Shown here: piece after piece, positions 3,448 to 26,012 of the stretch
How the letters are laid out: the number at the start of each line of letters is the position of its first letter
Position numbering within the stretch: position 1 is the stretch's first letter
NCBI GenBank assembly: GCA_001798595.1
Contig: MGSS01000011.1
Span: forward strand, 1 to 32,497
Direction: 5' to 3'
From: Deltaproteobacteria bacterium RIFCSPLOWO2_12_FULL_60_19
Lineage (GTDB): Bacteria; Desulfobacterota; Binatia; UBA9968
DNA: 32,497 nucleotides
Notes under the pieces: generated by a model
The model's input: only the letters and a program-made list of their open reading frames with translations
What the model was told of the DNA's origin: nothing
Databases searched by the model: none
Position numbers and translations under genes: made by a program

Positions 3448-3873
3448 TCACGCAATGGGATTTTCGATTTCTACCGTCCCGAGCCGTTGGCCCGCGGGAA
3501 AGTCTTCAGTGTAGAGCGGCGACAAGCCGTAGAACTCCGCATAGGCCCACATGTGAGCGTCAAACCAGGACAGCTGGTATGCCGCGCTACCCTGAAGAGC
3601 GAGGCGCAGCACACCCTGCGTCGGATAAAGTATGGGAAACTGCTCAAGAAGGGCTGCGGCTTGCAAGCGAGCCTCTTCTAGAGACAGGATGCTTCCTGCT
3701 CCCCCGCGCCGGCGCGTTACGGCTGCTACAAACTCGACAATTGCTTGATGAGGGAGACGAAGTTCGTCGCGTTCTAGGCCGCGACGAAGGAAATCGGTGG
3801 CGCGTGTCCGCTTTTCCGGAAAACGCTGATCAAAACGGTAGACGAGAATGTTAGTGTCTACCAGACCGGGCAT
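3448..3873 (-). CDS. vapC: PIN-domain ribonuclease toxin (VapC-like)
   Basis: A 141-residue PIN-domain protein. VapC toxins are Mg2+-dependent RNases neutralised by a cognate DNA-binding antitoxin. The acidic active-site residues are visible: D6 in LVDTNILVYRFD, E47 in AIVEFVAAV, D105 in SWFDAHMWAYA and D124 in YTEDF. The frame extends upstream to 3918, but the ATG at 3873 puts the first strand at the N-terminus as in the family. That start lies 23 bp inside the upstream antitoxin gene, and no ribosome binding site is seen, so translational coupling is likely. Confidence 0.9.
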   Translation of the reverse strand: MPGLVDTNILVYRFDQRFPEKRTRATDFLRRGLERDELRLPHQAIVEFVAAVTRRRGGAGSILSLEEARLQAAALLEQFPILYPTQGVLRLALQGSAAYQLSWFDAHMWAYAEFYGLSPLYTEDFPAGQRLGTVEIENPIA

Positions 3874-4159
3874 ATCGTTTGAGCCGGCCGGCATAGAGGT
3901 CTTCGCGGCGCCATCCACGTTTGGCGCCGGCGGGCGCGGGCTCTACGGCAGGAAAACGGTTAATACGCGCGCTCATTTTATCGAAAAGAGCGAGGCGCTT
4001 TTCAAGCGAGAGTCTAGGCCGTGGCCGCGCTTTGGGTGGCTCCATGCGGATAAGCTCGCCCGCAGGCACCAAATGAATGTTGCTCCCAGGCCGGATGCCA
4101 TACGCCTCTGCAATGGCTTTTGGAATGGTGACCTGAAGTTTTGACGTGACCTTCGCCAT
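3851..4159 (-). CDS. vapB: AbrB/SpoVT-type antitoxin (VapB-like)
   Basis: A 102-residue protein whose N-terminal 45 residues are a swapped-hairpin AbrB domain (AKVTSKLQVTIPKAIAEAYG, then PGSNIHLVPAGELIRM). It would bind operator DNA as a dimer and neutralise the PIN toxin through its C-terminal region (about 50-102), which is basic and proline-rich. It overlaps the toxin gene by 23 bp, antitoxin first, the usual order. The promoter directly upstream puts the -10 box only 6 bp from the ATG, so the mRNA is probably leaderless. Confidence 0.87.
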   Translation of the reverse strand: MAKVTSKLQVTIPKAIAEAYGIRPGSNIHLVPAGELIRMEPPKARPRPRLSLEKRLALFDKMSARINRFPAVEPAPAGAKRGWRREDLYAGRLKRYARSGRH

Positions 4160-4227: not shown

Positions 4228-6450
4228 CTATCGACTCTTCAACGCCTCAAACACCTTCTCCGCCGTGATCGGCAGCGACTTGATCCTCACGCCGACGGCG
4301 TCTTCGACGGCGTTGGCGATGGCGGCGGCGGTGGGCATGATGGCGGTCTCGCCGATGCTCATGCTGTGGTAGGGGCCGCTGCCGGTGTTGGATTGCTCGA
4401 TAACGGTTTTCAGCAGCGGGATATCTTGGATGGTCGGAATCTTGTAGTCGCCGAAATTCGCCGTCGTCACCTTGCCGCCCTCGTCGATGGCGACCTCTTC
4501 CATCCGGGCCTGGCCCATCCCCATCACCACGCCACCGTCGATCTGTCCCTGGTGCGCCAGCGGATTGACGATGGTCCCGGTGTTGTGGCTGGTGGTGATC
4601 TGCCGCACTTTGACCTCGCCGGTCTCCCGGTCCACTTCGACTTCCGCCACCTGGGCGACCATCGAGGCCTCCGGCCCGTCCTTCATATTCTGGTAATGGC
4701 CCTCGGCGACGATCGGCGCGCCTTTCGCGCGAACGATCTCCGCGTAGGTCACTCTCCGCTCCGCGTGGGCATGAATCGCCGCGCCGTCGTGGAGCATCAC
4801 TTCCTTCGGCGACGCGCCCAGCATCTTGGCCGCCGCCAGGACGATTTCCTCTCGCGCCATCTTCGCCGCTTCGTAGGCGGCGCTTCCGTGAACGCGCGTG
4901 CTGCTGCTGCCGCGCACGCCCGTGTCTTTGACGACTTTTGTGGTATCGAGCGCTTCGACCTGCACCGACTCCAGCGGAACCTTCAGCTCCTCCGCGACAA
5001 ACTGGCGCATCACCGTGTAAGCGCCGGAGCCCACGTCCATCACGGCGGACGATAACGTCACGCCGCCGTCTTCGCCGATCTTCACATAAACGTAGGATTC
5101 CCCACCTTTCGATACCCATTGCGCGACCGCCAGGCCGCGCCCGACATTCTTCGGCTTCGCCGTTGAATACCCGGATTCTCGCAGCGCGCGCTTAAGCGTC
5201 TCCTCCGCCCGGATGTGGCCGATGGTCTCTCCGGTCGGCGATACGTCGCCGTCGCGCATGACGTTTTTAAGCCTGAACGCGACCGGCTCCATACCCAGCT
5301 TCTTGGCGATCAAATCCATCTGGCTTTCCGTCGCGAAAAAGCCCTGCGTGTGGCCCGGCGCGCGCATGTAACCGCACGGGACACGGTTCGTGTAAACGTA
5401 TTTTTCCTCGATCAACACGTGCGGAATGCGGTACGGTCCGGCGGAATCGTGCGCGCCGACGAGAAATCCTTGCGGCCGGAACGAAGCGTAGGCGCCGCTG
5501 TCGAAGACAAACTCGATCTGCTGCGCGACGATCGTCCCGCTCCTCTTGACCCCGGTTCTGACGCGAATCACCGCCGGGTGGCGCGGGTTGCCCGCCATGA
5601 ACTCTTCGTTATAGTCCATGATGAATTTCACCGGCCGGCCGGTTTTCAACGACAACGCATAGCAGAGCGCGGCGTCGTTGTGATCGCCCTTGCCGCCGAA
5701 GTCGCCGCCGATGTAACAGGGATGGACCACGAGCTTTTCGGCGGAAGTCCCAAAGGCGTTCGCCAGTTGATCGCGCAAATTGAATGGGTTTTTGGTCGAG
5801 GCCCAGGCGTCCGCGCGCCCGTCGCCGTGCGCCTGCACCACGCACGAGTGCGGCTCGATGTAGGCCTGATGCACGCGCGAGGCGTGAAACGTATTCTCCA
5901 CCACCGTGTCGACCTGCTGGAAACCGGCGGCGATGTCGCCCTTTTTCCACGAGAGATGGACCATGACGTTGCTCGGCTTCTCGAGCGGATGAGGCAGACC
6001 GACGTAGCGCGTCACTTCGCGATGGAGCAGCGGCGCGGCCGGCTGCATGGCGTCGAGTGGATCGAGCACAGCGGCCATCTCCTCGTATTCGACTTCGATG
6101 AGATCGATCGCCTGAGAAGCGATCTCTTCGCTCTCGGCGGTGACGGCAGCGACCTTTTCGCCGATAAAGCGGACTACATCCTGGGCCAAAATCGGCATGT
6201 CGATAATCTTCTTGCCGATCTTGGCGCCCGGAATATCTTCGCCGGTGAGAACGGCGCGGACGCCGGGAAGTTGGAGGGCTTTGATGGAGTCGATCTTTTT
6301 GATGCGGGCGTGGGGCAGCGGGCTGCGAAGGACTTTCGCCCAGAGCATGTTCGGGAGCGTCACGTCGAGAGCATAGACGGCCTGGCCGCTGACCTTCTGC
6401 TCTCCTTCGACACGAGGTGTCGGAACACCGATGACACTTCTCTCAGCCAC
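4228..6450 (-). CDS. Molybdenum hydroxylase large subunit (xanthine dehydrogenase/CoxL family), orphan
   Basis: A 740-residue molybdopterin-binding subunit of the xanthine oxidase family. These enzymes hydroxylate heterocycles, aldehydes or aromatic acyl-CoAs at a Mo-cytosine or Mo-pterin centre. Visible features are the N-terminal hammerhead domain (VEGEQKVSGQAVYALDV), the cofactor loop GGDFGGK (248-254), the loop YMRAPGHTQ (361-369) where CO dehydrogenases carry AYRCSFR, and the catalytic glutamate E701 in MSIGETAIMP. It is therefore not a form I CO dehydrogenase. Unlike the complete set at 24635-28298, no FAD or 2Fe-2S subunit gene is adjacent. It is the last gene of the long minus-strand run, 21 bp after the vWA gene. 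The substrate cannot be told from sequence. Confidence 0.9.
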   Translation of the reverse strand: MAERSVIGVPTPRVEGEQKVSGQAVYALDVTLPNMLWAKVLRSPLPHARIKKIDSIKALQLPGVRAVLTGEDIPGAKIGKKIIDMPILAQDVVRFIGEKVAAVTAESEEIASQAIDLIEVEYEEMAAVLDPLDAMQPAAPLLHREVTRYVGLPHPLEKPSNVMVHLSWKKGDIAAGFQQVDTVVENTFHASRVHQAYIEPHSCVVQAHGDGRADAWASTKNPFNLRDQLANAFGTSAEKLVVHPCYIGGDFGGKGDHNDAALCYALSLKTGRPVKFIMDYNEEFMAGNPRHPAVIRVRTGVKRSGTIVAQQIEFVFDSGAYASFRPQGFLVGAHDSAGPYRIPHVLIEEKYVYTNRVPCGYMRAPGHTQGFFATESQMDLIAKKLGMEPVAFRLKNVMRDGDVSPTGETIGHIRAEETLKRALRESGYSTAKPKNVGRGLAVAQWVSKGGESYVYVKIGEDGGVTLSSAVMDVGSGAYTVMRQFVAEELKVPLESVQVEALDTTKVVKDTGVRGSSSTRVHGSAAYEAAKMAREEIVLAAAKMLGASPKEVMLHDGAAIHAHAERRVTYAEIVRAKGAPIVAEGHYQNMKDGPEASMVAQVAEVEVDRETGEVKVRQITTSHNTGTIVNPLAHQGQIDGGVVMGMGQARMEEVAIDEGGKVTTANFGDYKIPTIQDIPLLKTVIEQSNTGSGPYHSMSIGETAIMPTAAAIANAVEDAVGVRIKSLPITAEKVFEALKSR

Positions 6451-6471
6451 CCCTACCCCTTATGATTTGAG

Positions 6472-8064
6472 CTAGACCCTTTTTCTGCGGTGCGAGACGT
6501 AATCGATCAGCAGGTATTCGCCGAGGCGGTCGGGGCGCGTGTAGAAGGCGCGCCCGCGGTTGATCTTGGTCAGCTCGTCCACAAAACCTTTGAGCACCGG
6601 GCTGTCGTCCAGCATGAAGGTGTTGATCGTGATGCCGCGCCGGGTCACCCGCTCCGCTTCTCTCAGCGTCTCCTCCGCGGCGCGCTGGCTGATGCCGCCG
6701 AAGCTGAGCGGCCACTCGCAATAGAGCCGTCCCTGGCGGCAGTAGGCAGTCGGCTGGCCGTCGGTGATCACGATCATCTGCTGATTCGGGCTCGGCCGCT
6801 TGTCCAACAGCTCAGCGGCGAGGTGAAGCCCGTCCTGCAGGTTGGTAAACGGATCGCCCATGTTCCAGGTCGCCTCCGGCAGATCTTTGGGCTTCAGCTC
6901 GATGGCGCGCGTAAAAAATCCGACAATGCCGAAATAGTCTCGCGGGTGGAGCGAGCGCATCAGCGTATCCATCGCCAAGGCGACCTTCTTGGCCGCCGCG
7001 AACCGGCCGTCCCAGCTCATCGACCAGCTCATGTCCAAGAGCAGGACGGTCGCCGCGCGCGTCGAGTGCTCGGCGTCATACACCGTAAAGTCCTTGGGAG
7101 TAAGCCGGAGCGGCACGGTGCCGCCGTTGAACAGGGCGTTTTTCAGCGTCTGAATGATGTTGAGATGAAGCGCGTCGCCGTACGCGTAAGGGCGGCTCTG
7201 TTCGGTCATCATCTCCTGAGAGCCGCGCCGCCGAACCGGATGGCGCCCGAGCGCGTCGCGCCTGAGCTGGAGGTAGATATCGCGCAGCGCTAGCTGGCCG
7301 ATCCTGCGCACTCCGCGCGGCGTCAGCTCGAAGTGATCGCCGCGATTGAGCACGTAGCCGCCTTCTTCAAGAGCGGACTCGAGCCGCGCAACGCCCTTAA
7401 AGTCTTCGAGCACATCCTTGCCCAGGAGCTGCTCCAGCAGCTCCTGGTCCACTTGATCCAGCTTCATGCTCGAAAGCTGGCTTTCCAGCCGTCTCAGGGC
7501 TTCGAGCTGGTCGAGCATCTCCTGGGCTTGATCGAAATCGAGCGGCGTCTGGCCGCGAAAGAGATTGCCCTCGCGGCGGGCGGAGGCTTCGAGCCGTTTC
7601 AGCCGGTCCAGCTTGGAGAGCAGCTCCTGAAACTGGGAGCCCGCCTCCGCGTCCTCGAACTGATAGCCGGCGAGCTTTTCAATTGCCTCGCTCGATTTTC
7701 CCGGCAGGCGGTCGAGGAATTTTTGTTTCTCCTCGATTTCGGACTTTGTCCGGTCGCGCCGATCGAGAGTCCGCCGCTCCCGGTCGACGATCTCGTCCAG
7801 CGCCTCCCGCACTTCATCGAGCGCGGACTGCAAGCGGTAGCGCTCGTAGAGCTTTCGCATCTCGCGCGCGACCTGAGAAAGGAGGTCTTCCACCCCCTTG
7901 ACCTGCTTCTCTCCGTCCTTGAGGCCGCGCTGCATCAGGCGGCGCATCGCCTGCTGCAAGTCGCCCGTGTCGCTCATGTAGTCGTTGAGCTGCTGGAAGA
8001 CGCTGTCCGCCCCGACCTCTTCCGAAGCGCCGTCGTTCCACCGACTATAGCGAATCTTACGCAT
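6472..8064 (-). CDS. vWA-domain protein, partner of the BchI-like ATPase
   Basis: A 530-residue protein. The N-terminal 300 residues are charged and largely helical (coiled-coil-like runs such as RDRTKSEIEEKQKFLDRL). The C-terminal 200 residues form a von Willebrand A domain with an intact metal-ion-dependent adhesion site D344-x-S346-x-S348 (LLLDMSWSMSWDGR) and a later VITDGQPT. Such proteins act with an AAA+ ATPase, as ChlD with ChlI or CoxE with CoxD, in metal insertion or remodelling. The frame extends 10 codons further upstream, but those codons fall in an inverted repeat; the ATG at 8064 starts the conserved part. No Shine-Dalgarno is visible because the repeat ends 4 bp from the start. 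The AAA+ gene lies just upstream and the Mo-hydroxylase gene just downstream. Confidence 0.85.
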   Translation of the reverse strand: MRKIRYSRWNDGASEEVGADSVFQQLNDYMSDTGDLQQAMRRLMQRGLKDGEKQVKGVEDLLSQVAREMRKLYERYRLQSALDEVREALDEIVDRERRTLDRRDRTKSEIEEKQKFLDRLPGKSSEAIEKLAGYQFEDAEAGSQFQELLSKLDRLKRLEASARREGNLFRGQTPLDFDQAQEMLDQLEALRRLESQLSSMKLDQVDQELLEQLLGKDVLEDFKGVARLESALEEGGYVLNRGDHFELTPRGVRRIGQLALRDIYLQLRRDALGRHPVRRRGSQEMMTEQSRPYAYGDALHLNIIQTLKNALFNGGTVPLRLTPKDFTVYDAEHSTRAATVLLLDMSWSMSWDGRFAAAKKVALAMDTLMRSLHPRDYFGIVGFFTRAIELKPKDLPEATWNMGDPFTNLQDGLHLAAELLDKRPSPNQQMIVITDGQPTAYCRQGRLYCEWPLSFGGISQRAAEETLREAERVTRRGITINTFMLDDSPVLKGFVDELTKINRGRAFYTRPDRLGEYLLIDYVSHRRKRV

Positions 8065-8068
8065 GGTC

Positions 8069-8152
8069 AGGCACCAGGCGAGAGGCGTAAGCAAGAGAAA
8101 AACCCGAGCGGAGAAGCTTGCGGCGAGAGTCTCCTCCTCTCGCCTGTTGCCT
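8069..8152. repeat. Inverted repeat between the AAA+ and vWA genes
   Basis: Two 17 bp arms, AGGCACCAGGCGAGAGG (8069-8085) and CCTCTCGCCTGTTGCCT (8136-8152), are inverted copies with one mismatch, around a 50 bp loop. The loop holds a further GGCGAGAG that can pair with CTCTCGCC. It fills nearly the whole 104 bp intergenic gap. It could be a REP-like mobile palindrome and would fold in the transcript. Confidence 0.75.
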
Positions 8153-8168
8153 CACGCCTAACGCCTTC

Positions 8169-9566
8169 CTACTTTCCGTAGGTGATTCGTCCGCCCTCCA
8201 TCTCCTTATTCAGCTTCTGATGCAGGTGCAGCCCCTCGAGGACGAATTCGGTGGCCGACGCCATCAGCGCCGGGGACTCCATCGGCCCGAGCGTGCCGAT
8301 CGCTTCCTTGAGACCGGGAATTTCCTTGATGCCCTCGAGGTAGTCCTGCGAGGCCATGACATCGGAAACCTCCACGCCCCAGCCGGAGTTGAAGTAGTCC
8401 ACGACCTTTTGCAAGCCGTTGACGGTGAAATACTGGTCGAAGACCTTCAAGATGGCGCGGTTGAACAGCTTGTCGACCAGGTCGTCCTCTTTTCTCTCCT
8501 CGCCGACGTATTCCATCTCGATCTTTCCGCCGGTCGAGGCGAGCATCGCGTGAAAATCGCTGACGCGCGGCACCACCTCTCCTTCTCTGAGACGCAGCGC
8601 CCGCTTTTCCGCGTTGCTGATGAGGCTCTCGTAGTTGTTGATCGTCACGCGGACGCTCACGCCCGAGGACTGGTTGATCTCGCTCGACTTGCGCGCCTCG
8701 AACGTCATGTGCGCCAGAATTTCTTTGATGAATTGCGGAACGGTGACCGCCCGGCCGCGCTGCTTCATCGGCGCCGCCTCCTGCTCCATGATCGCGATCT
8801 CATCCTTGATCTCCCGCGGGTAGTGGGTGCGGATCTGGACATCGAAGCGGTCTTTGAGCGGGGTGATGATCCGCCCGCGGCTGGTGTAGTCCTCCGGGTT
8901 GGCGCTCGCCATGATCACCACGTCCAGCGGCAGCCGGATCTTGTATCCTTTGATCTGGACGTCCTTCTCCTCCATCAGGTTGAACAGGCCGACCTGGACT
9001 TTTTCCGTCAGGTCCGGCAGCTCGTTCACCGCAAAGATCCCCCGGTTGGTCCGCGGGATCAAGCCGTAGTGGATCGTCTCCTCGTCCGCGAGATACCTTC
9101 CCTCGGCGACTTTGATCGGATCGATCTCGCCGATCAGATCCGCGATCGAGACGTCCGGCGTCGCCAATTTCTCCCCGTAGCGATGGTCCCGGTCGACCCA
9201 TTCCAGCGGAAGGCTGTCGCCCTGCTCCTCCAGGCGTCTGCGGCAACCCCGGCAGATCGGCGCGAACGGGCTGTCGTTGATTTCGCAGCCCTGGACGATC
9301 GGGATTCTTTCGTCGAGCAGCGAGACCAGCCCGCGGATGATGCGCGACTTCGCCTGCCCGCGCTCCCCGAGAAAGACCATGTGATGGCCCGACAGGATGG
9401 CATTTTCAATGTCCGGAATCACCGTCTCATCGTAGCCGACGATGCCGGGCAGAATCCGGTTGCCGGTTTCCAGACGGTGGACCAGATTCTTGCGCATCTC
9501 TTCGCGCACCGTCAGCGCCGAATAGCCGCTCTTTTTAATCTCGCCTAAAGTCTTTGCCTCTTTCAC
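8169..9566 (-). CDS. AAA+ ATPase of the magnesium-chelatase ChlI/BchI-like family
   Basis: A 465-residue protein. It has a Walker A-like GERGQAKSR (68-76), a Walker B GIFAVNELPDL (about 176-186) in which Asn-Glu replaces the usual Asp-Glu, and the family segment MASANPEDYTSRGRIITPLKDRFD (split over 219-242) with sensor and arginine-finger residues. A cysteine-bearing insert (C94, C105, C108) between Walker A and B could bind a metal. The start is GTG at 9566, overlapping the lapA stop as GTGA and preceded by GGAGG; the longer upstream frame is only an overlap with lapA. It probably works with the vWA protein downstream as a chelatase or MoxR-like remodelling pair. The context with a Mo-hydroxylase recalls CoxD/CoxE, which mature CO dehydrogenase. 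No chlorophyll or cobalamin genes are present. Confidence 0.88.
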   Translation of the reverse strand: MKEAKTLGEIKKSGYSALTVREEMRKNLVHRLETGNRILPGIVGYDETVIPDIENAILSGHHMVFLGERGQAKSRIIRGLVSLLDERIPIVQGCEINDSPFAPICRGCRRRLEEQGDSLPLEWVDRDHRYGEKLATPDVSIADLIGEIDPIKVAEGRYLADEETIHYGLIPRTNRGIFAVNELPDLTEKVQVGLFNLMEEKDVQIKGYKIRLPLDVVIMASANPEDYTSRGRIITPLKDRFDVQIRTHYPREIKDEIAIMEQEAAPMKQRGRAVTVPQFIKEILAHMTFEARKSSEINQSSGVSVRVTINNYESLISNAEKRALRLREGEVVPRVSDFHAMLASTGGKIEMEYVGEERKEDDLVDKLFNRAILKVFDQYFTVNGLQKVVDYFNSGWGVEVSDVMASQDYLEGIKEIPGLKEAIGTLGPMESPALMASATEFVLEGLHLHQKLNKEMEGGRITYGK

Positions 9567-9904
9567 GCGTTCATGCCTCCCTCCGATAAATTCGCCGTTC
9601 CCCGATCTTTCGCTTCCCCTTGTTCCCGATTCCTGTAAGCCGCCAACTCGCTTTCCATCTGCGCGATCTTCCGCTCCTGCTCCCGCAGGCTCCTCTTCAA
9701 AGAAAGCTCGTCGAGGAAAAAACCGACTCCCGCCAGGCAGACGCCGAGTAAAATAGAAAAGAGCACGATCAGAAACAGCGGAACCGGCGGAGATTCGAGC
9801 CCAAAATAGTACCGGAGCACGACCCAACTCGTGTTCTCCATCGCCAGGGTGATGCCGAGGATGAACAGCAGGGTGAAAGAAATCGCCTTTAGCACTTTCC
9901 GCAT
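9563..9904 (-). CDS. lapA: LapA/DUF1049-type inner-membrane protein
   Basis: A 113-residue protein with two membrane helices (about residues 5-22 and 42-64) joined by a short loop with WVVLRYYFGLESPPVPLFL. A coiled coil follows (DELSLKRSLREQERKIAQMESELAAYRN). This is the LapA layout; in E. coli LapA works with LapB in control of lipopolysaccharide synthesis. No lapB is in view. It starts 4 bp after the HIT gene stop and overlaps the AAA+ gene by 4 bp. Family recognition is good; the role here is inferred. Confidence 0.8.
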   Translation of the reverse strand: MRKVLKAISFTLLFILGITLAMENTSWVVLRYYFGLESPPVPLFLIVLFSILLGVCLAGVGFFLDELSLKRSLREQERKIAQMESELAAYRNREQGEAKDRGTANLSEGGMNA

Positions 9905-9908
9905 ATTC

Positions 9909-10397
9909 TTAAGCCAGGACGTTCTTGAATAACGGGCTCAACCGATCGTAGCTGTCGAGCAGGTGTTGCGGGATGACCCGGACCTCGCCGACGAGCGGCA
10001 TGAAATTGGTGTCTCCCTCCCACCGCGGAACCACGTGCCAGTGGAGATGGTCCTCCACGCCGGCGCCCGCGCAGCGGCCCAGGTTCATTCCCAGATTGAA
10101 GCCGCCGGGCCGAAGCTCGTCCCGCAGAACGTCAACCGACATTCTAAGCGTCTCGCAGAGATCCTGATGCTCCTGCGGAGAGAGGGAGGAGAGCTGATCG
10201 ACGTGCCGCTTGGGCGCGACCAGCAGATGGCCGCTGTTGTAAGGATACTTGTTGAGCATGACCACCGCGTGCGCGCTCTGCGTCAGGACCAGGCCCGCCC
10301 GCGCGTCCACCGCCCGCGGCTGATCGCAAAAGATGCAGCCGGCGGTCTTTCCCTGCTCGATATAAGTCATCCTCCAGGGGGCCCAGAGCGACTTCAT
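9909..10397 (-). CDS. HIT-family hydrolase/phosphorylase
   Basis: A 162-residue histidine-triad protein. HIT enzymes act on dinucleoside polyphosphates or nucleoside phosphoramidates. The triad HLHWH (H117, H119, H121), followed by VVPRW, is complete. A CIFC pair (C21, C24) near the N-terminus and KYPYNSGHLLVAPKRH upstream of the triad match the Ap4A-phosphorylase-like branch. The start ATG overlaps the IHF gene's stop as ATGA, so translation is coupled to that gene. Confidence 0.9.
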   Translation of the reverse strand: MKSLWAPWRMTYIEQGKTAGCIFCDQPRAVDARAGLVLTQSAHAVVMLNKYPYNSGHLLVAPKRHVDQLSSLSPQEHQDLCETLRMSVDVLRDELRPGGFNLGMNLGRCAGAGVEDHLHWHVVPRWEGDTNFMPLVGEVRVIPQHLLDSYDRLSPLFKNVLA

Positions 10398-10729: not shown

Positions 10730-11629
10730 TCACGGCAGCAGCGAAGGCGACCACTCGTAGCGCAGTCCCAGGCTCTCGTGCCGGACTTTGCTCAGGCCGT
10801 AGAGCGAAAAAAGCAGCTTCTCCCACCAGCGCTTCTCCTCCACCCGGGAATAGACCACCTGCGGCGCGCCCTTGATCCCGCCGCTCTTTGCGGCCAGCTC
10901 GATCGCGTCTTCCAGAGTTCCCAGCACATCGACCAGCCCCAGCTCTTTCGCTTGCTCGCCGGAGTAGACCCGCCCGTCGGCCAGCGTCCTGACCCGCGCC
11001 TCCTCCATCTTTCGACCTTTAGCGACGGCGCGCACGAACTGTGCGTGGACGTTGTTGACCAGCGCCTGAAGAATCGCCTTCCCCTCCGGCGTGAGCGGGC
11101 GCAGCGGCGACCCGATATCTTTGTTCGCGCCGCTCTTGACGTTGTAACCCTGAATACCGAGCTTCTTCATCAGCTCTTCGACGTTTCCCAGCTCCATGAT
11201 GACGCCGATCGAGCCGGTGAGAGTTCCGGGATTCGACACGACCTGATCGCAGATGCTGGCGATATAATAGCCGCCCGAGGCCGCGATTCCGCCGAACGAT
11301 GCGACCACCGGCTTTTTCTTGCGCAGCTTCTCGATCTGTTCGTAAATCTCCTGCGTCGGGGCGACCGCTCCTCCGGGAGAATCGATCCGCACCACCACCG
11401 CCTTGATCCCCTTGGCCTCGCCGAATTGCTTCAAGCTCTGTATCGTCTCGCGCGAATCGCCGATCGTGCCTTCGACCAGCACCACCCCGACCGCGTCTCC
11501 GCCGAACAGCGCGAGGATCCCGGCCTCACCTCCCGCCAAATAGGCGTAAAAAAAGACCGCAAACGAAAAAACGATCACCGACAGAAAAAGAATCCCTAAC
11601 CCTTTGAGCAGGGAACGTCCCTTGGCCAT
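10730..11629 (-). CDS. sppA: Signal peptide peptidase SppA (short, 36K type)
   Basis: A 299-residue membrane serine protease that degrades cleaved signal peptides. Residues about 8-31 form the signal anchor. The catalytic pair is visible: S118 in IAASGGYYIA and K170 in SGANKDIGSP, the arrangement of the single-domain Bacillus-type enzyme rather than the tandem E. coli form. IDSPGG (82-87) is the family signature. It is 18 bp after rpsA and 27 bp before the IHF gene, a conserved delta-proteobacterial neighbourhood. Confidence 0.95.
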   Translation of the reverse strand: MAKGRSLLKGLGILFLSVIVFSFAVFFYAYLAGGEAGILALFGGDAVGVVLVEGTIGDSRETIQSLKQFGEAKGIKAVVVRIDSPGGAVAPTQEIYEQIEKLRKKKPVVASFGGIAASGGYYIASICDQVVSNPGTLTGSIGVIMELGNVEELMKKLGIQGYNVKSGANKDIGSPLRPLTPEGKAILQALVNNVHAQFVRAVAKGRKMEEARVRTLADGRVYSGEQAKELGLVDVLGTLEDAIELAAKSGGIKGAPQVVYSRVEEKRWWEKLLFSLYGLSKVRHESLGLRYEWSPSLLP

Positions 11630-11647: not shown

Positions 11648-13402
11648 CTATTGCGGATTGCCTCCTTTGGTTTTATCGGCGGGCTGCGGCTCTTCGTCGC
11701 GGTCGAGCTTCAGCTCCTCGTTCAAGATCGTCTCGAGAGAGAACCGGCCCCCTTCTTTCTCCCGCTTGAGATAATTTTCCATCTCGAGCCGCTCTTCGGT
11801 CTTGCGCAACGCGCGAATGCTGAGGCCGAGCTTTCTGTCGTGAGGCTCCACCTGAATCACTTCGGCTTCGATGGGATCCCCGACTTTAAAAAGACTTGAC
11901 GGCTTGTCCACCCGCTCGGTGCTGAGCTGCGACACGTGGATCAACCCTTCAATCCCCTCTTCCAGGCGAACGAACACTCCGAAATCCGGCACGCTCGACA
12001 CCTCGCCCTTGACCTTCGATCCCACCGGATATTTCTGCGCGATCACCTGCCACGGGTCCACCGCGAGCTGTTTGATCCCGAGGGAGAATCGCTCGTTTTG
12101 GACATCCACTCCCAACACCTTGGCCTCGACGATATCGCCCTTCTTGTACAACTCCGAAGGATGCTTGACCTTCTTCGTCCAGTGCATGTCCGAGACGTGC
12201 ACGAGGCCGTCGATCCCCTCCTCGAGGCCGACGAAAATCCCAAAGTCCGTCACGTTCTTCACCGGACCCCGGATCACGCTGCCCACCGGATATTTTTGCT
12301 TCACCTGCTCCCACGGATTGGGCATGACCTGCTTCAGCCCGAGAGAGATGCGACGATGGTTCGGGTCGGCGTTCAACACCTGGACTTCCACCAGCTCGCC
12401 CACCTGAACGAGTTTGGAAGGATGAGCGACCTTTCTCGTCCAGGACATCTCCGAAATGTGAATCAGCCCCTCGATTCCCTTCTCCAGCTCGACAAACGCG
12501 CCGTAGTCCGCCAGGCTCACGACCTTCCCCTGCACGCGCGTTCCGACCGGAAATTTATCGAGCACCATGTTCCACGGATCGGGTGCGATCTGTTTCATCC
12601 CCAGCGAGATGCGCTCGCGCTCCGCGTCGAACTTGAGCACCACCACTTTGATCCGATCCCCCACGTTGACCAGCTCCGAGGGATGGGCGATGCGTCCCCA
12701 CGACATATCGCTGATGTGGAGGATTCCGTCGATCCCGCCGAGATCCACGAACGCGCCGTAGCTGGTGATGTTCTTGACCGTGCCTTCCAGGATGACGCCT
12801 TCCTCCAGAACTTTGAGGATCTCTTTCTTGAGAACGTCCCGCTCTTTCTCCAGCAGCACGCGGCGGGAGACCACCACGTTGCCGCGCGCGCGGTTGTACT
12901 TGAGCACCGCGAAGCGGTCTTTTTTCCCGACGAATTTATCCAGATTACGCGTCGGCCGGATGTCCACGTGGGAGCCGGGGAGAAATCCCGGCACTCCGAC
13001 GTCCACATTGAAGCCCCCCTTCACCTTGCCCAGGATGGTCCCTTCCACGCCCGTGCCCTCGCGGCAGGACTTTTCGATCTCTTCCCAAATCTTGAGATTC
13101 TCCGCCCGCTGGCGCGACAGCACGATATTGCCCTGTTCGCTCTCGGAGGAGTCGAAGTAGACATCGACCTCATCGCCGACCTTGACCTGGACGTTGCCCT
13201 GCCGGTCCAGAAATTCGTGCAACGAAACCTGCCCCTCGGACTTGTAACCCACGTCGACCATGACGTGCGTGCTGGTGATCCCGACGACCGTTCCCTTGAC
13301 GACTCCACCCGGCTTGACCGTGCGCAGGCTCTCCTCGAAAAGGCTCTCAAAGTCCTCACCGCTCGCGCTCTCTGTTGGTTTGTTTTCGTCTCTTTCCGCC
13401 AT
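11648..13402 (-). CDS. rpsA: 30S ribosomal protein S1
   Basis: A 584-residue protein with six S1/OB repeats at about residues 32-98, 117-182, 203-271, 288-357, 375-444 and 462-531. Repeats 3-6 each carry the GAFV-x-L ... GLIHIS pattern. Six repeats match the Gram-negative protein that helps the 30S subunit bind structured or leader-poor mRNA. The acidic N-terminus (ESASGEDFESLFEESL) is also typical. GAAGGGA lies upstream of the ATG. The gene is 24 bp after cmk; the ispH often found between them in related bacteria is absent. Confidence 0.97.
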   Translation of the reverse strand: MAERDENKPTESASGEDFESLFEESLRTVKPGGVVKGTVVGITSTHVMVDVGYKSEGQVSLHEFLDRQGNVQVKVGDEVDVYFDSSESEQGNIVLSRQRAENLKIWEEIEKSCREGTGVEGTILGKVKGGFNVDVGVPGFLPGSHVDIRPTRNLDKFVGKKDRFAVLKYNRARGNVVVSRRVLLEKERDVLKKEILKVLEEGVILEGTVKNITSYGAFVDLGGIDGILHISDMSWGRIAHPSELVNVGDRIKVVVLKFDAERERISLGMKQIAPDPWNMVLDKFPVGTRVQGKVVSLADYGAFVELEKGIEGLIHISEMSWTRKVAHPSKLVQVGELVEVQVLNADPNHRRISLGLKQVMPNPWEQVKQKYPVGSVIRGPVKNVTDFGIFVGLEEGIDGLVHVSDMHWTKKVKHPSELYKKGDIVEAKVLGVDVQNERFSLGIKQLAVDPWQVIAQKYPVGSKVKGEVSSVPDFGVFVRLEEGIEGLIHVSQLSTERVDKPSSLFKVGDPIEAEVIQVEPHDRKLGLSIRALRKTEERLEMENYLKREKEGGRFSLETILNEELKLDRDEEPQPADKTKGGNPQ

Positions 13403-13426
13403 GAACTGTTTTTTCCCTTCTCTATC

Positions 13427-14107
13427 TCAGTTGGATATAAACATTTTTTTTTCGATTTCTCGCCGGACTATCGCCATCACCTCATCGACGCTGTGGCGCG
13501 TGGAGTCGATGGCGATCGCGTCGTCGGCCTTGCGCAGCGGCGCCAGGGTACGCTGCTCGTCCCGCCGGTCCCGTTCGTTCATCTCTTCCAAGGTCTCTTC
13601 CAGCGTAACCTCTTTTCCCTGCCCTCTCAACTCATCGAACCGCCGCTGCGCCCGCTCCTCGGAGCTGGCCGTTAAAAAAATCTTCACTTCCGCCCGGGGA
13701 AAGACGACGGTCCCGATGTCTCTCCCCTCCGCCACAACGCCGCCGCGCGCGCCCATCGCGCGCTGCAGCTCGACCATCCGCTCGCGCACGGGCCGGAGCG
13801 CCGACACCTTCGACGCCGACTGGCTCATCTCCGGCGCGCGGATCTGAGTCGTAACATCAACTCCGTCCAGCATAACTTTGAGACCGCCCGGCTCTTCCAG
13901 CAGCTCAATCCGCGTCTCGCGGAGCGCCGCCATCAGCGTTGCTTCGTTTTCCAGGTCGATGGCGCTCTCCTTGACCTTCCACGCAAAAGCCCGGTACATC
14001 GCGCCGGTATCCATATATGTGTAGCCTAACTCTTTTGCCAGCCGTTTGGCTACCGTGCTCTTCCCGGCTCCCGCCGGCCCGTCAATCGCCACAGTGAGTT
14101 TCTTCAC
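13427..14107 (-). CDS. cmk: Cytidylate kinase
   Basis: A 226-residue enzyme that phosphorylates CMP and dCMP with ATP. It has the P-loop GPAGAGKST (10-18), the CMP-binding YMDTGAMYRAFAWK, VAEGRDIGTVVFP and the lid-region arginines RDRRDEQR. The length is normal. It sits 14 bp after aroA and 24 bp before rpsA; the aroA-cmk-rpsA order is widely conserved. Confidence 0.97.
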   Translation of the reverse strand: MKKLTVAIDGPAGAGKSTVAKRLAKELGYTYMDTGAMYRAFAWKVKESAIDLENEATLMAALRETRIELLEEPGGLKVMLDGVDVTTQIRAPEMSQSASKVSALRPVRERMVELQRAMGARGGVVAEGRDIGTVVFPRAEVKIFLTASSEERAQRRFDELRGQGKEVTLEETLEEMNERDRRDEQRTLAPLRKADDAIAIDSTRHSVDEVMAIVRREIEKKMFISN

Positions 14108-14121
14108 CTGCCCAACACATT

Positions 14122-15426
14122 CTACGACGCGCGCAGCCCTTCAAGCAATCGAAAAAATCCCGGAAATGAGATATCGGCGCAGCCCGTGTCGTCGATCTCG
14201 ACGCCGCCGCTGGCCGAAAGGCCCGCCACGGCAAGAGCCATCGCGACCCGGTGGTCGCCGTAGCTCTTGAGCGATGCGCCTTCCAGCCGCTTCCCGCCCT
14301 CGATGGTCATGCCGTCCTCGCGCTCCTCGACCCGCGCGCCGAGCTTGCGCAGTTCTTTGGCCATGGCGGCGATCCGGTCGGATTCCTTATAACGCAACTC
14401 CCTGGCGCCGCAAATCGTCGTCACACCTTCCGCCAGAGCGGCGGCGACCGCCAGCGCCGGGTACTCGTCGATCGTGCGCGCAACCATTTCCGGGGCAATC
14501 TCAACTCCGTTCAATTTTCCACCGACCACCCGTAAATCCGCAACCGGCTCTCCGGCCTCCTGCCTGAGATGAGTTCTCTCAATGTTTGCCCCCATCCGTC
14601 TCAGGACATCGATCGCGCCACTGCGCGTGGGATTGCAGCCCACGCCCCGTATCGTTACGTCCGAGCCGGGCACCATCGCGGCCGCAACCAGAAAAAACGC
14701 CGCCGAGGAGAGATCGCCAGGCACGCGGACATCTTTCGCTGAAAGCTCCTGCGGACCTTTGAGCGACACTGTCCGGCCGCCGCTGACGACTTCGATTTTC
14801 GCGCCGAAGGCGGGCGCCATGATCTCGGTATGGTCGCGCGACTGCTGCGGCTCCTCGACCACCGTGAGCCCTTCGGCCTGAAGCGCGGCCAAGAGAATCG
14901 CCGACTTGACCTGCGCGCTGGCGACCGGCGTCGCGTAGCGAATCCCTTTGAGCTTTCCGCCGTGCACCTCAAGCGGAGCGCTGCCCTTGCCGTTGCGGCT
15001 TATGATAGAAGCGCCCATTTGCCCGAGCGGTTCGATCACCCGCTTCATCGGTCGTTGCCGCAGCGAGGCGTCGCCGTCGAGAGTCGTGACAAAAGGCCTT
15101 CCCGCGAACACGCCGGAGAGCAGCCGCATCGTTGTGCCCGAATTGCCGCAATCGATAACACGGCTCGGCGGTTGAAGTCCTTCCCATCCTCGCCCCTCGA
15201 TGACCAGAATACCGTCCTGCTCCGAAATCCCGACTCCAAGATTTCTGAATGCCTCGACCGTCCTTAAGTTGTCCTCGCCGCCCGAGAGATTGTAAACCCG
15301 GCTCGTGCCGCGCGCGATGCTCGCAAAGATCACCGCCCGGTGGCCGATCGACTTATCTCCCGGAACGACGATCTCACCGTGGAGCGGGCGCTGCGCCTGT
15401 TCGATTCTCTTCACTTGCGTTTTCAC
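14122..15426 (-). CDS. aroA: 3-phosphoshikimate 1-carboxyvinyltransferase (EPSP synthase)
   Basis: A 434-residue enzyme that joins shikimate 3-phosphate and phosphoenolpyruvate in the chorismate pathway. Visible motifs are GDKSIGHRA (23-31), CGNSGTTMRLLSG, QRPMKRVIEPL, SAQVKSAILLA, RDHTE and NPTR, and a C-terminal KESDRIAAM and GDHRVAMAL. The set GDKS/SAQxxK/RxHxE/NxTR fits the class II subfamily (Bacillus, Agrobacterium CP4-like) rather than the E. coli class I enzyme. The glycine of GNSGT that fills the glyphosate pocket is kept. It starts 2 bp after tyrA. Confidence 0.97.
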   Translation of the reverse strand: MKTQVKRIEQAQRPLHGEIVVPGDKSIGHRAVIFASIARGTSRVYNLSGGEDNLRTVEAFRNLGVGISEQDGILVIEGRGWEGLQPPSRVIDCGNSGTTMRLLSGVFAGRPFVTTLDGDASLRQRPMKRVIEPLGQMGASIISRNGKGSAPLEVHGGKLKGIRYATPVASAQVKSAILLAALQAEGLTVVEEPQQSRDHTEIMAPAFGAKIEVVSGGRTVSLKGPQELSAKDVRVPGDLSSAAFFLVAAAMVPGSDVTIRGVGCNPTRSGAIDVLRRMGANIERTHLRQEAGEPVADLRVVGGKLNGVEIAPEMVARTIDEYPALAVAAALAEGVTTICGARELRYKESDRIAAMAKELRKLGARVEEREDGMTIEGGKRLEGASLKSYGDHRVAMALAVAGLSASGGVEIDDTGCADISFPGFFRLLEGLRAS

Positions 15427-15428
15427 CG

Positions 15429-16283
15429 TCAGGTCATTTGCCGGCGGGTTTCATTCGCCGACGCGAACTCCCGTTCGAGCAACGCCCCCTGCCCCTTACG
15501 AATCAACCTGTTCATGCGCTCAAGGCTCTTGATGTAATCTGCGAGACTTCCGCTCACAGCCTCGCGATTGAGCAAGCAGATGTCGCGCCAAAGCTCGGGC
15601 CGGCTGGAAGCGATCCGCGTGAAGTCCTTGAAGCCGCCGCCACAGTACTCTTTCAGGTCCACCCTGTCCACCTTCGTGCGGCTCAAGAGATTGACCAACG
15701 CGTAGACCAAAACATGCGGGAGATGACTCACCACGCCGAGGATGCGGTCGTGAAGTTGCGGGTCCATGATCTCCACTTTCGCCCCGACCTTGCGCCAAAA
15801 AGACTTGAGCTTTTTCAGCGCGGCTCTGTCCGTATGGCGCGTGGGAGTGAGGATACAGCGCTGGCCGATGAAGAGATCGGCCCGCGCCGGCGCCGCGCCC
15901 CATTGCTCGCCGCCGGCGATCGGATGCGCGCCGACGAAAGGAAGCGTATCAGGCAGCAACTTCTCCATATCGCGTACGATCTCAGCCTTGACGCTTCCGA
16001 CGTCGCTTACAACGCAACCCGGGTGCAGACTGCCCATAAACTCTTCCATAAGCGGAACGGTGGATCGCACCGGCGTGCCCAGAACGAGAAGATCGGTTTC
16101 AAACGGAATTTCATGAGAGCGCAAAAAATAGCTGTTAATCATTCCCTTCTTCAAAGCCACCCGCAGGTTTTTCTCTCCCCGCCCGTAGCCGATCACTTCC
16201 TCAACCAGCCCGCGCTTTCGCGCCGCGAGCGCGAGCGACCCGCCGATCAACCCTACGCCGGCAATCACCATCCGCCGAAACAT
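15429..16283 (-). CDS. tyrA: Prephenate dehydrogenase
   Basis: A 284-residue NAD(P)-dependent enzyme that oxidises prephenate to 4-hydroxyphenylpyruvate for tyrosine. A Rossmann GVGLIGGS (9-16) opens the protein. VGAHPIAGGEQWGA, VVSHLPHVLVYALV and GGGFKDFTRIASS are family motifs. The open frame runs upstream to 16358, but residues before 16283 lack family character. A GGGGAGGGAG suits either this ATG (long spacing) or a GTG at 16292. The 80 bp gap after hisC holds a minus-strand TATTAT that might belong to an internal promoter, without a good -35. Confidence 0.95.
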   Translation of the reverse strand: MFRRMVIAGVGLIGGSLALAARKRGLVEEVIGYGRGEKNLRVALKKGMINSYFLRSHEIPFETDLLVLGTPVRSTVPLMEEFMGSLHPGCVVSDVGSVKAEIVRDMEKLLPDTLPFVGAHPIAGGEQWGAAPARADLFIGQRCILTPTRHTDRAALKKLKSFWRKVGAKVEIMDPQLHDRILGVVSHLPHVLVYALVNLLSRTKVDRVDLKEYCGGGFKDFTRIASSRPELWRDICLLNREAVSGSLADYIKSLERMNRLIRKGQGALLEREFASANETRRQMT

Positions 16284-16363
16284 CACCGCCACGACATCTC
16301 CCTCCCCTCGCCCCCGATCGGTCCGACCATGCTGTTTTCCCTTATAATAGCGTCGCACTTCAT

Positions 16364-17473
16364 CTACTCGTTCTCTTTAACTACCGTTTTTAACTCTTCG
16401 ATAAATCGGCTGTTTTCCATCATCGTTCCGACCGTCACTCGAATGTAGTCGGGGAGATCGTAGGCGCCCATCGGCCGGACGATCACGCCGCGCCGGAGCA
16501 GCTTCTCGAACACCGCGCGGCCGTCGCCGACGCGCAGCAGAATAAAGTTCGCCTGGCTTGCCACCCGCTTGAGGCCGAGCTTGTCGACCTCGCGTTCGAG
16601 ATATTCCATCCCCTCGCGGTTGACCTCCAGCGTGCGCCTTATGTGCTCGGCGTCGTCGAGCGCCGCAAGCGCCGCCCACTGAGCCGCCGCGTTGACGTTG
16701 AACGGCTGTCTCACCCGCTGCATCAATCCGACAATCTCTTTCGGCCCGACCGCGTAGCCGATTCGCAGACCGGCGAGGCCATAGAGCTTGGAGAACGTTC
16801 TGAGGGTCAGGATCGTTCTGCCTTCGCCCTGGTAAACTTGATAAGCGATCGAATTCGGATAGTCTGCGTCGCCGACGTATTCGAAGTATGCCTCATCGAC
16901 GATCAGCAGAATCTCCGCCGATATGCGCTCAAGAAATCTCTCGAACTCGCGCCTCCGATAAATCGTCCCCGTCGGATTATTCGGATTGGCCAGAAACACA
17001 ACCCTCGTCTTCGGCGTGATCGCCTGCGCCATCGCCTCTAAGTCGTGGGTAAAATCCTTGAGCGGGACGATTTTGCTCGCGCCGCCCGCCGCCTGCACCA
17101 CAAGCCGATAAATCACGAACGCGCGGTGCGCCACGATCGCTTCATCGCCCGGACGCATGAACGTGCGCACGGCCAGCTCGATCAGTTCATTCGACCCGTT
17201 GCCGAAGATGAGGCGGTCTTGCGAAACGCCGAGTTTCGCCGCCAGCGCGCGCTTGAGATAAAAGCTGTCGCCATCCGGGTAGAGATGGAGATCGCTTACC
17301 CGCTCGGCGACCGCCTTGACCGCTTTGGGCGACGGGCCGAGCGGATTCTCGTTCGAGGCGAGCTTGATCGAACCTTCGATTCCGTACTCCCGCTCCACCT
17401 CTTCGATCGGCTTGCCCGGCTCGTAAGGAACGAGCGAGCGGATGTATTCGGGCACCCGATCCAAAAGACTCAT
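16364..17473 (-). CDS. hisC: Histidinol-phosphate/aromatic aminotransferase
   Basis: A 369-residue fold-type I PLP aminotransferase. The Schiff-base lysine is K229 in RTFSKLYGLAGLRIGYA. ASNENPLGPSP (39-49), NPNNPTGT and DEAYFEYV are HisC signatures. Because it lies between pheA and tyrA and no other his gene is near, it probably also, or mainly, transaminates phenylpyruvate and 4-hydroxyphenylpyruvate to Phe and Tyr, a known activity of several HisC enzymes. It is 7 bp after pheA. Confidence 0.94.
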   Translation of the reverse strand: MSLLDRVPEYIRSLVPYEPGKPIEEVEREYGIEGSIKLASNENPLGPSPKAVKAVAERVSDLHLYPDGDSFYLKRALAAKLGVSQDRLIFGNGSNELIELAVRTFMRPGDEAIVAHRAFVIYRLVVQAAGGASKIVPLKDFTHDLEAMAQAITPKTRVVFLANPNNPTGTIYRRREFERFLERISAEILLIVDEAYFEYVGDADYPNSIAYQVYQGEGRTILTLRTFSKLYGLAGLRIGYAVGPKEIVGLMQRVRQPFNVNAAAQWAALAALDDAEHIRRTLEVNREGMEYLEREVDKLGLKRVASQANFILLRVGDGRAVFEKLLRRGVIVRPMGAYDLPDYIRVTVGTMMENSRFIEELKTVVKENE

Positions 17474-17480
17474 ACGTCGC

Positions 17481-18557
17481 TCATACGGCGCAGGGATAAG
17501 AGCCTAAAATTTTCATGAACAGGCATCTCTTCTCCAGTTTTTGTATCGCGCGCTGGACCCGCGGCTCTTTCACGTGCCCCCGAAGATCGAGGAAGAAGAG
17601 ATACTCCCAGGGCTTGTTCTTGAGCGGGCGCGACTCGATCTTGGTCAGATTGATCCGGTTTTTAGCGAACGGATCGAGCATCCGGTGCAGCACCCCGACC
17701 TCGTCCTTGACGGAAAAAACCAGCGAGGTCTTGTCGTCCCCGCTCGGCTTGGTCGTCTGATTCCCGATCACCAGGAAGCGCGTGATGTTGTTGGCATTGT
17801 CTTCAACGTTCTCTTCCACCGCCTCCAAACCGTAAAGCTCTTTCGCCAGCCGGCTGGACACCGCCGCCAGATTCGGATCTGCGGCCGCGAGCTCGGCGGC
17901 GTGCGCGGTGCTGGAGACCTCTTCCACCGGAATCTTTGGCAAGTGGCTCGTCAGCCAGCCGCGGCACTGGGCCAGCGCCTGGGGATGAGAGACGATCTTG
18001 CGAATGTTGGCGGCCTTCCCGGACCGCGACAGGAGGTAGAGGTGGATGTCGAGATAGGCCTCGGCGCAGATCTTCACCTCAGCTTCGACCAGGAGATCGA
18101 GCGTATGTGTCACGGCGCCCTCCGTGGAATTTTCGATCGGCACGACGCCGTAGTTCGCCCGCCGTTGGCTCACTTCCTGGAATACTTCCGGGATGCTGGC
18201 GGCGGGAATAAACGTCGTCGATGAGCCGAAGCGCTCGCGCGCCGCCAGGTGCGTAAACGTCGCCTCCGGGCCGAGATAGGCGATCCGCAGCGGCGCTTCC
18301 AACGAACGTGAGGCGGAGAGAATTTCTCGATAGACGGCGTGGATCGATTTTTCGGGAAGCGGGCCGCGATTTAATTTAGAGAGTCGCTGGAAGATTTCTT
18401 TCTCGCGGCTGGGGACAAAAACCTCCTCGCTACCCAGGCTCTTCGTTCGACCGATTGCCTGGGCCAGCGAGGCCCTTTGGCTCAGCAGCTCTACGATTTT
18501 CTCATCGACCTGATCGATTTTTTTCCTGAGATCATCGACGGACTCTCGACGTTTCAA
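17481..18557 (-). CDS. pheA: Chorismate mutase-prephenate dehydratase (P-protein)
   Basis: A bifunctional enzyme converting chorismate to prephenate and then to phenylpyruvate. Domains are an AroQ chorismate mutase (about 5-85, DDLRKKIDQVDEKIVELLSQR), a prephenate dehydratase (about 90-268, with IAYLGPEATFTHLAA, VPIENSTEG and the catalytic TRF at 259-261) and a C-terminal ACT domain with ESRP (308-311). GVLH stands where GAL(V) is usual, and phenylalanine feedback control is likely. Two TTG codons, 18563 and 18557, are possible starts; the second has GGCGAGG 6 bp upstream and is chosen. It is the first gene of the long minus-strand run; upstream TTGCTA-17 bp-TAGGTT is a weak promoter candidate. 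Confidence 0.95.
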   Translation of the reverse strand: MKRRESVDDLRKKIDQVDEKIVELLSQRASLAQAIGRTKSLGSEEVFVPSREKEIFQRLSKLNRGPLPEKSIHAVYREILSASRSLEAPLRIAYLGPEATFTHLAARERFGSSTTFIPAASIPEVFQEVSQRRANYGVVPIENSTEGAVTHTLDLLVEAEVKICAEAYLDIHLYLLSRSGKAANIRKIVSHPQALAQCRGWLTSHLPKIPVEEVSSTAHAAELAAADPNLAAVSSRLAKELYGLEAVEENVEDNANNITRFLVIGNQTTKPSGDDKTSLVFSVKDEVGVLHRMLDPFAKNRINLTKIESRPLKNKPWEYLFFLDLRGHVKEPRVQRAIQKLEKRCLFMKILGSYPCAV

Positions 18558-18658
18558 TGACAACCTCGCCTGAACGCTTCATTTTTAGACCGTGAAAAAC
18601 TTGCATGGAGTGATGTAACCTAGCTTAATTCCAAGGAAATAGCAAATTTGGCCGACCC

Positions 18659-22183: not shown

Positions 22184-22260
22184 GGTTGTCCTTCCGGAAA
22201 TGTGGTTGTTGTAGCGCAAGAAATGGATTAAGTGAAGGGATCGAAGAGAAAGGGACGCTT

Positions 22261-24455: not shown

Positions 24456-24467
24456 AACCGTAAGCGA

Positions 24468-24497
24468 AGGGTATTCGACAAGCGCGCGCGTAGTCAA
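24468..24497 (-). promoter_or_regulatory. Promoter candidate for the lipoprotein amidohydrolase
   Basis: Minus strand TTGACT (24492-24497), 18 bp spacer, TACCCT (24468-24473), 12 bp to the ATG at 24455. The spacer is one base long and the -10 match is moderate. The predicted leader is only about 5 nt and no Shine-Dalgarno is seen. Confidence 0.45.
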
Positions 24498-24591: not shown

Positions 24592-24620
24592 TTGACGGGT
24601 TCATCGGCTCCGAATAAGAG
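24592..24620 (+). promoter_or_regulatory. Weak promoter candidate before the Mo-hydroxylase operon
   Basis: TTGACG (24592-24597), 17 bp spacer, TAAGAG (24615-24620), upstream of the ATG at 24635. The -35 is good and the -10 poor. A GGAGCC/GGCTCC pair flanks the -35 and might be a regulator site. The 137 bp gap is the only place upstream for the operon's control region. Confidence 0.35.
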
Positions 24621-24634
24621 TGAGGGCAACAGTT

Positions 24635-26007: not shown

Positions 26008-26012
26008 TCGTC

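Follow-up and report, generated by a model that had tools for sequence, protein, structure and literature searches.

What, if anything, links an AAA+ ATPase and its von Willebrand factor A (vWA) partner to the molybdenum (Mo) hydroxylase gene that lies directly behind them? The question is raised by contig MGSS01000011.1 (positions 1 to 32,497, forward strand), a stretch of 32,497 nucleotides, hereafter the window, from a 4.19 Mb genome that we assign to the Binatota and that is 97% complete (genome G000, contig C11). On the minus strand, genes for SppA, a HIT-domain protein, a LapA-domain protein, the AAA+ ATPase (8169-9566), the vWA protein (6472-8064), a Mo-hydroxylase large subunit (LSU; 4228-6450) and a PIN-domain protein follow one another. 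The three central genes thus run in order on one strand, as stated in the original prediction, which was made from the sequence alone and proposed that the pair could be a cofactor-maturation machine for the hydroxylase. The explanation that we find best overall, and hold with modest confidence, is a different one: a housekeeping AAA+/vWA pair next to a relocated solo LSU with small subunits encoded elsewhere.

Distribution and nature of the AAA+/vWA pair

Mo-hydroxylases were scored by a match to MoCoBD_2 in 58 related genomes, from family to class level. The AAA+ gene is present in 55 of these and a MoCoBD_2 match in 50. All eight genomes without such a match (G036, G040, G041, G043, G046, G047, G051 and G054; 93-100% complete) carry the AAA+ gene (E 4.7e-199 or better), and the vWA gene adjoins it in all six flanks examined among them (L083, L084, L086, L091, L095 and L097). 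The three genomes free of the AAA+ gene (G021, G023 and G049), two of which are in more than 600 contigs, have 22, 22 and 1 MoCoBD_2 matches, respectively. Thirteen further genomes were included via named loci, so that the AAA+ gene is present by construction; four of them have no MoCoBD_2 match. Because the pair is kept in genomes without a MoCoBD_2 match, it is not specific to Mo-hydroxylases, and its client or clients cannot be these enzymes alone. Regular occurrence of the pair without any Mo-hydroxylase is the finding that the original prediction had itself named as contradicting it.

Gene order leads to the same place. A same-strand vWA gene lies within the stretch examined at 40/40 loci of relatives and at 77/80 named loci (the misses are L166, L190 and L208), two sets that overlap in organisms; at L096, the vWA gene is 4 kb away from the AAA+ gene. 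The recurrent linkage to a Mo-hydroxylase that the prediction led one to expect proved exceptional: besides the window, an LSU gene near the pair was found at one of the 40 relative loci (L060, of genome G002) and two of the 80 named loci (L129 and L204), where L129 is taken as the same record as L060, given their equal length and layout. Where the sequence extends 2 kb or more past the vWA gene, no pair in either set (0/32 and 0/55, the sets overlapping) has an LSU within 2.5 kb downstream; L060/L129, with just 802 bases beyond the vWA gene, fall outside these counts. Within 2.6 kb upstream, an LSU was found for 0/39 and 1/70 pairs with room, the one being L204. The stretches examined at L202 and at six loci (L239-L244) of the order to which G058 belongs contain no LSU; in that order, a strong AAA+ match (E below 1e-100) was found in 7/116 genomes and any match at 0.001 in 29. 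Thus, among the relatives examined, an LSU directly behind the pair recurs outside the window in a single genome, the close relative G002, in which 20 bases separate the vWA stop from the apparent GTG start of the LSU, compared with 21 bases in the window, where the LSU is presumably co-transcribed with the pair. AAA+, vWA and LSU are not a conserved module, and a dedicated maturation module made up of the three was rejected in view of the distribution, the gene order and the evidence for relocation of the LSU presented below. G000 has 26 MoCoBD_2 matches, so that proximity of some gene to a Mo-hydroxylase gene is not unusual there.

The two proteins were scanned against Pfam, NCBIfam and PADLOC. 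The AAA+ protein matches Mg_chelatase above the cut-off (E 7.3e-6; 26 bits, cut-off 20.3), which bears out its description as BchI-like, and matches BchI-ChlI at 1.8e-11 with 43.8 bits, far below the cut-off of 466.95. All 45 aligned proteins share G100, G103, K106, the Asn-Glu pair N214-E215, N256, R273 and R339; we take G100, G103, K106, E215, N256, R273 and R339 to represent Walker A, the Walker B Glu, the sensor and the Arg finger. The predicted replacement of the Walker B Asp by Asn accordingly holds throughout the alignment. The Cys-bearing insert that had been described along with it is real and not universal: C127, C138 and C141 are each kept in 39/45 proteins, and the triplet is absent from L182, L195, L197, L199, L201 and L206. 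The predicted structural model has a mean pLDDT (predicted local distance difference test score) of 76.5, with values below 50 in residues 1-33, 169-187, 189-202, 235-243 and 259-268. CbbQ2 and NorQ lead its fold matches (Z 14.2 and 14.1), and BchI/ChlI and RavA are also among the Foldseek matches; because other AAA+ families are within 1 Z, the fold does not decide the family assignment. In a sequence-profile search, ChlI was the first match.

The vWA protein, which has a helical N-terminal part, matches VWA_2 (4e-9) and no more specific Pfam family. Its metal ion-dependent adhesion site (MIDAS) is complete, as predicted, with D344, S346, S348, T407 and D435 invariant in 41/41 aligned proteins. 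VWA_CoxE (PF05762) has two matches in G000, on C1 and C31, and none on the window contig. Since the vWA protein is outside the CoxE family, the pair, judged by sequence, is a branch other than CoxD/CoxE, which agrees with the original prediction. The CoxD/CoxE pair of the CO dehydrogenase system of Oligotropha carboxidovorans resembles that of the window in combining AAA+ and vWA genes with a Mo-hydroxylase gene nearby; it differs in its CoxE-type vWA protein, and the window pair lacks a recurrent Mo-hydroxylase linkage. G000 has a set of that kind elsewhere, on C1 (L287), where an AAA_5 ATPase takes the position of CoxD and is accompanied by a VWA_CoxE protein and two XdhC-type open reading frames (ORFs), a composition that would fit Mo-hydroxylase maturation.

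We are fairly sure that the pair is a protein-remodelling couple of the MoxR/ChlI kind. It shares neighbouring AAA+ and vWA genes and a complete MIDAS with the MoxR couples (NorQ/NorD, CbbQ/CbbO and RavA/ViaA) and with ChlI/ChlD. Members of these systems are among the fold matches of its ATPase, and ChlI is among the profile matches. In contrast to these systems, it has an Asn-Glu instead of an Asp-Glu Walker B, the Cys-bearing insert in most members, a vWA protein of no family more specific than VWA_2, and no known client. For NorQ/NorD, plugging of the ring by the vWA domain has been reported, along with a requirement of the MIDAS for client activation (PMC9976466). By analogy, the ATPase would form a hexameric ring, and the vWA protein would plug it and hold the client via the MIDAS metal site; ATP hydrolysis would remodel the client, probably admitting a metal or cofactor. 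The mycobacterial proteins Rv0958/Rv0959 are putative members of this AAA+/vWA family. A vitamin B12 screen includes a transposon insertion upstream of mmar_4541 (Rv0958, named magnesium chelatase) (PMC11237697). An anti-phage role of the pair was rejected, with no PADLOC match at 0.01. As to the ternary MoxR-vWA conflict system, bpMoxR scores 20.4 bits, below the cut-off of 27, and the vWA protein has no additional domain match; the third component was not searched for.

Some observations count against so complete a separation of the pair from Mo-hydroxylases, chief among them the gene order of one locus. At L204, from a metagenome-assembled genome of Desulfotignum sp., genes for a flavin adenine dinucleotide (FAD) subunit, an FeS subunit, an LSU, the AAA+ ATPase and the vWA protein follow one another on the same strand, the gap from LSU to AAA+ being about 0.2 kb. 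This arrangement may leave room for a functional link between pair and LSU in some lineages, and may also be due to chance or local recruitment. Furthermore, the arrangement of the window is also kept in a second genus and thus has survived for some time, and the relatives are largely fragmented assemblies, so that some absences are contig ends. L204 (1929-11431) is the one locus found with FAD, FeS and LSU genes immediately upstream of the pair; the genes before this set resemble, on visual inspection, those of an ABC transporter.

The pair could be a general metal-centre chaperone with several clients, Mo-hydroxylases included, that was recruited locally in some lineages. The L204 arrangement and the abundance of Mo-hydroxylases in G000 favour this; however, no LSU occurs in the flanks examined of L197, L199-L201 and L206-L208 (labelled Sphaerobacter, Thermomicrobium or Chloroflexi, L199 only Bacterium HR28), despite 6-11 MoCoBD_2 matches per genome, and we consider it unlikely. 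That the pair is a CoxD/CoxE-like machine dedicated to the LSU behind it is most improbable: the tight vWA-LSU spacing kept in G002, the gene order of L204 and the help that MoxR/vWA couples are known to give to metal-centre assembly elsewhere (PMC9976466) are outweighed by retention of the AAA+ gene in all eight genomes without a MoCoBD_2 match, by the empty downstream regions of the pairs with room, by orthologous LSUs that sit elsewhere and by the CoxD-like/CoxE/XdhC set on C1. Taken as a housekeeping couple, the pair is an ordinary finding, to which adjacency in a genome with so many Mo-hydroxylase matches would have given a false role.

A clade of solo large subunits and the likely relocation of one member

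The LSU matches Ald_Xan_dh_C (E 1e-29), MoCoBD_1 (4.4e-72) and MoCoBD_2 (8.3e-64) and holds the a/b hammerhead and both MoCo-binding domains, so its description as a xanthine-dehydrogenase-type (XOR family) large subunit stands. Glu701, which we take to be the active-site Glu of the XOR family, is kept in 46/46 aligned rows with a residue there. The alpha subunit of 4-hydroxybenzoyl-CoA reductase ranks first among the PDB matches (1rm6 chain A, E 7.7e-83) and is also the best NCBIfam match, but at 468.5 bits against a cut-off of 994.55, the LSU is outside that equivalog and, unlike the reductase, has no adjacent beta and gamma genes. The second-best PDB match is 4zoh chain A, from the GAOR2 structure.

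No FAD or 2Fe-2S gene lies beside the window LSU, confirming that the hydroxylase has no adjacent electron-transfer subunits. It is not alone in this: 7 of the 26 LSUs of G000 are without a nearby FAD or 2Fe-2S gene, namely those at C11:4417 (the window), C2, C93, C82, C152, C142:2669 and C10. The small-subunit gene nearest to C142:2669 is 4.6 kb off, in a divergent full set. An eighth LSU, on C5, is cut by the contig end, and an LSU pair on C57 has a 2Fe-2S gene and no FAD match.

In a tree of 48 rows, the window LSU and those of C2, C93 and C82 fall in a solo clade of 36 rows (support 100/100), apart from the rows with their own small-subunit sets; C93 and C82 have long branches that join, as flagged by the tree program. 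Most rows of the solo clade carry the signatures GGDFGGKGD and GYMRAPGH or GHMRAPGD, whereas own-set rows mostly have GGGF/YGxK and xxRGxG. Among the 33 solo-clade loci other than the two linked to the pair, a small-subunit gene was found in L246 only, 6 kb off and beside another LSU; several of these contigs are short, so absence is not proven locus by locus. Far from being always paired with small subunits elsewhere, the hydroxylase thus has relatives that are orphans too in the flanks examined. Homologues at E 1e-150 or better occur in 35/35 genomes of the order (G000-G034) and 3/23 others, counts in which some members are so distant that their solo status would need inspection.

The position behind the pair is probably a derived one. 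Over 259 residues, the window LSU shares 78% identity with the LSU fragment of G002. Homologues of the next rank (61-70%) occupy other contigs or distant positions; one of them, in G008, is on the opposite side of the pair at a distance of 11 kb. At 11 loci in 11 genomes (L245-L249, L267, L268, L270, L271, L272 and L275), the LSU orthologue is found just behind a gene for an Lhr-type helicase. There is no LSU at the lhr locus of G000 itself (L265) or of G016 (L266), and that of G002 (L280) reaches the contig end. The two pair-linked LSUs group together (100/99) within a group of 19 rows (100/97) that holds all 11 lhr-linked LSUs. The simplest history would be a single relocation in the ancestor of G000 and G002, in which an LSU of the order-wide solo clade moved behind the pair, most likely from behind lhr; this direction is suggested by the broader distribution of the arrangement with lhr. 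In three genomes (L246, L248 and L249), the lhr-linked solo LSU is closely followed by an MlaC gene.

A conserved partner gene beside the solo LSUs was sought and rejected: no neighbour cluster occurs in more than 5/18 loci, lhr being one of two that reach five. The other neighbours, among 19 chosen for scanning, include MlaC, UbiD, ABC transporter parts, SDR, ADH, amidohydrolase, CoxG and a 4Fe-4S protein. The last of these has 276-284 amino acids and 4Fe-4S motifs and is encoded 144 and 178 bases after the solo LSU in L251 (10431-11258) and L252 (6942-7793), in one genus. The solo LSU of L247 is followed at 0.6 kb by a UbiD gene, and that of L254, in G007, at about 0.8 kb by a CoxG gene (7392-7844).

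The solo LSU could also work without FAD and 2Fe-2S subunits, be it with a different electron partner such as a 4Fe-4S ferredoxin or as a non-redox Mo enzyme. The 4Fe-4S gene of L251 and L252 and the clade's own signature motifs are compatible with this, but that gene is clustered with the LSU in just 2/18 loci, no other neighbour does better than five, and the domains and the active-site Glu are intact, which makes a departure of this kind rather unlikely. More probably, the solo LSU carries the molybdenum active site and passes electrons to a FAD/2Fe-2S pair encoded elsewhere.

Candidate electron-transfer partners

Two of the 19 Fer2_2 matches in G000, those of C69 and C144, come from cassettes that also contain FAD and CoxG genes, and both contigs are free of MoCoBD_2 matches; solo LSUs and small-subunit pairs without an LSU therefore coexist in this genome. 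In the stretches examined in relatives, CoxG, FAD and 2Fe-2S genes without an LSU were found at 20/20 C69-type and 17/20 C144-type loci, the three exceptions with an LSU all being in genus g7. When the cassettes were searched for in 34 genomes, 30 of the order and 4 outside it, the FAD gene was found at E 1e-100 or better in 26/30 (C144 type) and 25/30 (C69 type) of the order genomes. At least one type is present in 29/30 order genomes and in 0/4 outside, a distribution that matches that of the solo LSUs. In G000, the LSU-less C144 cassette (L290:6299-9719) is beside a UbiD-type gene.

A precedent for such sharing comes from Sulfolobus tokodaii, where GAOR2 and GAOR3 have one M/S pair in common and L genes at distant loci (PMC4726530), so that, as in G000, large-subunit genes lie away from a FAD/2Fe-2S pair. 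CoxG has been proposed to recruit CO dehydrogenase to the membrane (PMC4240915). Given the cassette and LSU data together with this precedent and the role of CoxG, we infer that solo LSUs use shared cassettes, and the likeliest electron-carrying partners of the window LSU would be the LSU-less CoxG-FAD-FeS cassettes of C69 and C144.

The original prediction had looked for the partner nearer by, at 24635-26007. The window indeed encodes on its plus strand a FAD subunit (24620-25504) and a 2Fe-2S subunit (ORF 25429-26007, the true start being probably further in), which, as XOR-type subunits on the same contig, could be borrowed. However, they are directly followed by an LSU of their own (26013-28298), 37% identical to the window solo LSU, with which they form a separate and complete set. 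Because of this LSU, they are the weaker candidate, and since G000 has LSU-less cassettes as well, borrowing from this set is very unlikely.

Several findings sit less easily with a relocated solo LSU served by shared cassettes. Within the 19-row group, L251, L252, L256 and L257, four members from another family, do not sit behind lhr. The C144-type cassettes of genus g7 adjoin LSUs outside the solo clade; membership of these LSUs in that clade is ruled out by sequence comparison. The co-distribution of solo LSUs and cassettes could come from shared ancestry alone. Finally, the partnership of solo-clade LSUs and cassettes is proposed from gene order only, which distinguishes it from the GAOR2/GAOR3 case, as do the order-wide solo clade and the presence of CoxG in the cassettes.

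The g7 LSUs are informative in their own right. That of G014 is 81% identical to an LSU of G000 that has a full set. Those of G006 and G019 are nearest to LSUs of G000 without small subunits (C10, C152 and C142; 50-57%), of which C152 and C142 are outside the solo clade and C10 is absent from the tree. Because of this resemblance, other kinds of solo LSU may be partners of the C144-type cassette. Separately, five genomes of one genus (G026, G028, G029, G033 and G032) have a window-like LSU 9-22 kb from a C144-type cassette, which is maybe a single event and is not counted as evidence.

If the cassettes do serve the solo LSUs, this order of the Binatota may, as a tentative proposal, have combinatorial molybdo-hydroxylases, with scattered solo LSUs plugging into a few shared, CoxG-equipped and possibly membrane-docked FAD/2Fe-2S cassettes. 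The solo molybdenum subunits and the solo reductase cassettes would then be two halves of shared enzymes, a testable idea. Counts of complete operons would underestimate active Mo-hydroxylases, the substrate range could be widened by duplication of the large subunit alone, and one electron-delivery module would serve many substrate-specific active sites. We regard this as moderately interesting, a testable variation on an assembly principle already known, the use of additional large subunits only, which has been shown for two Sulfolobus enzymes (PMC4726530). In the open-licence literature, to which our search was confined (full texts of Binatota papers being outside its scope), we found no description of solo Mo-hydroxylase subunits in Binatota.

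Other genes of the window

For the PIN-domain ORF (3448-3918, minus strand) downstream of the LSU, a single-sequence profile gave 0 matches at the 40 relative loci. Upstream, the AAA+ gene starts with a GTG at 9566 that overlaps the stop of the LapA-domain ORF (9563-9904, minus strand). The HIT-domain protein (9909-10397) and the SppA signal peptide peptidase (10730-11629), both on the minus strand, are frequently encoded upstream of the AAA+/vWA pair at relative loci.

The three-subunit Mo-hydroxylase at 24620-28298 on the plus strand is flanked by three amidohydrolase-family genes, at 20677-21678 (minus), 23184-24497 (minus) and 28214-29428 (plus), and an NMT1-type binding protein is encoded nearby, at 22186-23187; together, they suggest a catabolic cluster. 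The stretch 11648-18563 on the minus strand, which immediately precedes the SppA-HIT-LapA-AAA-vWA genes, contains the aromatic amino acid genes for EPSP synthase, prephenate dehydrogenase, an aminotransferase and chorismate mutase/prephenate dehydratase, along with genes for cytidylate kinase and an S1-domain protein, the latter having six matched stretches.

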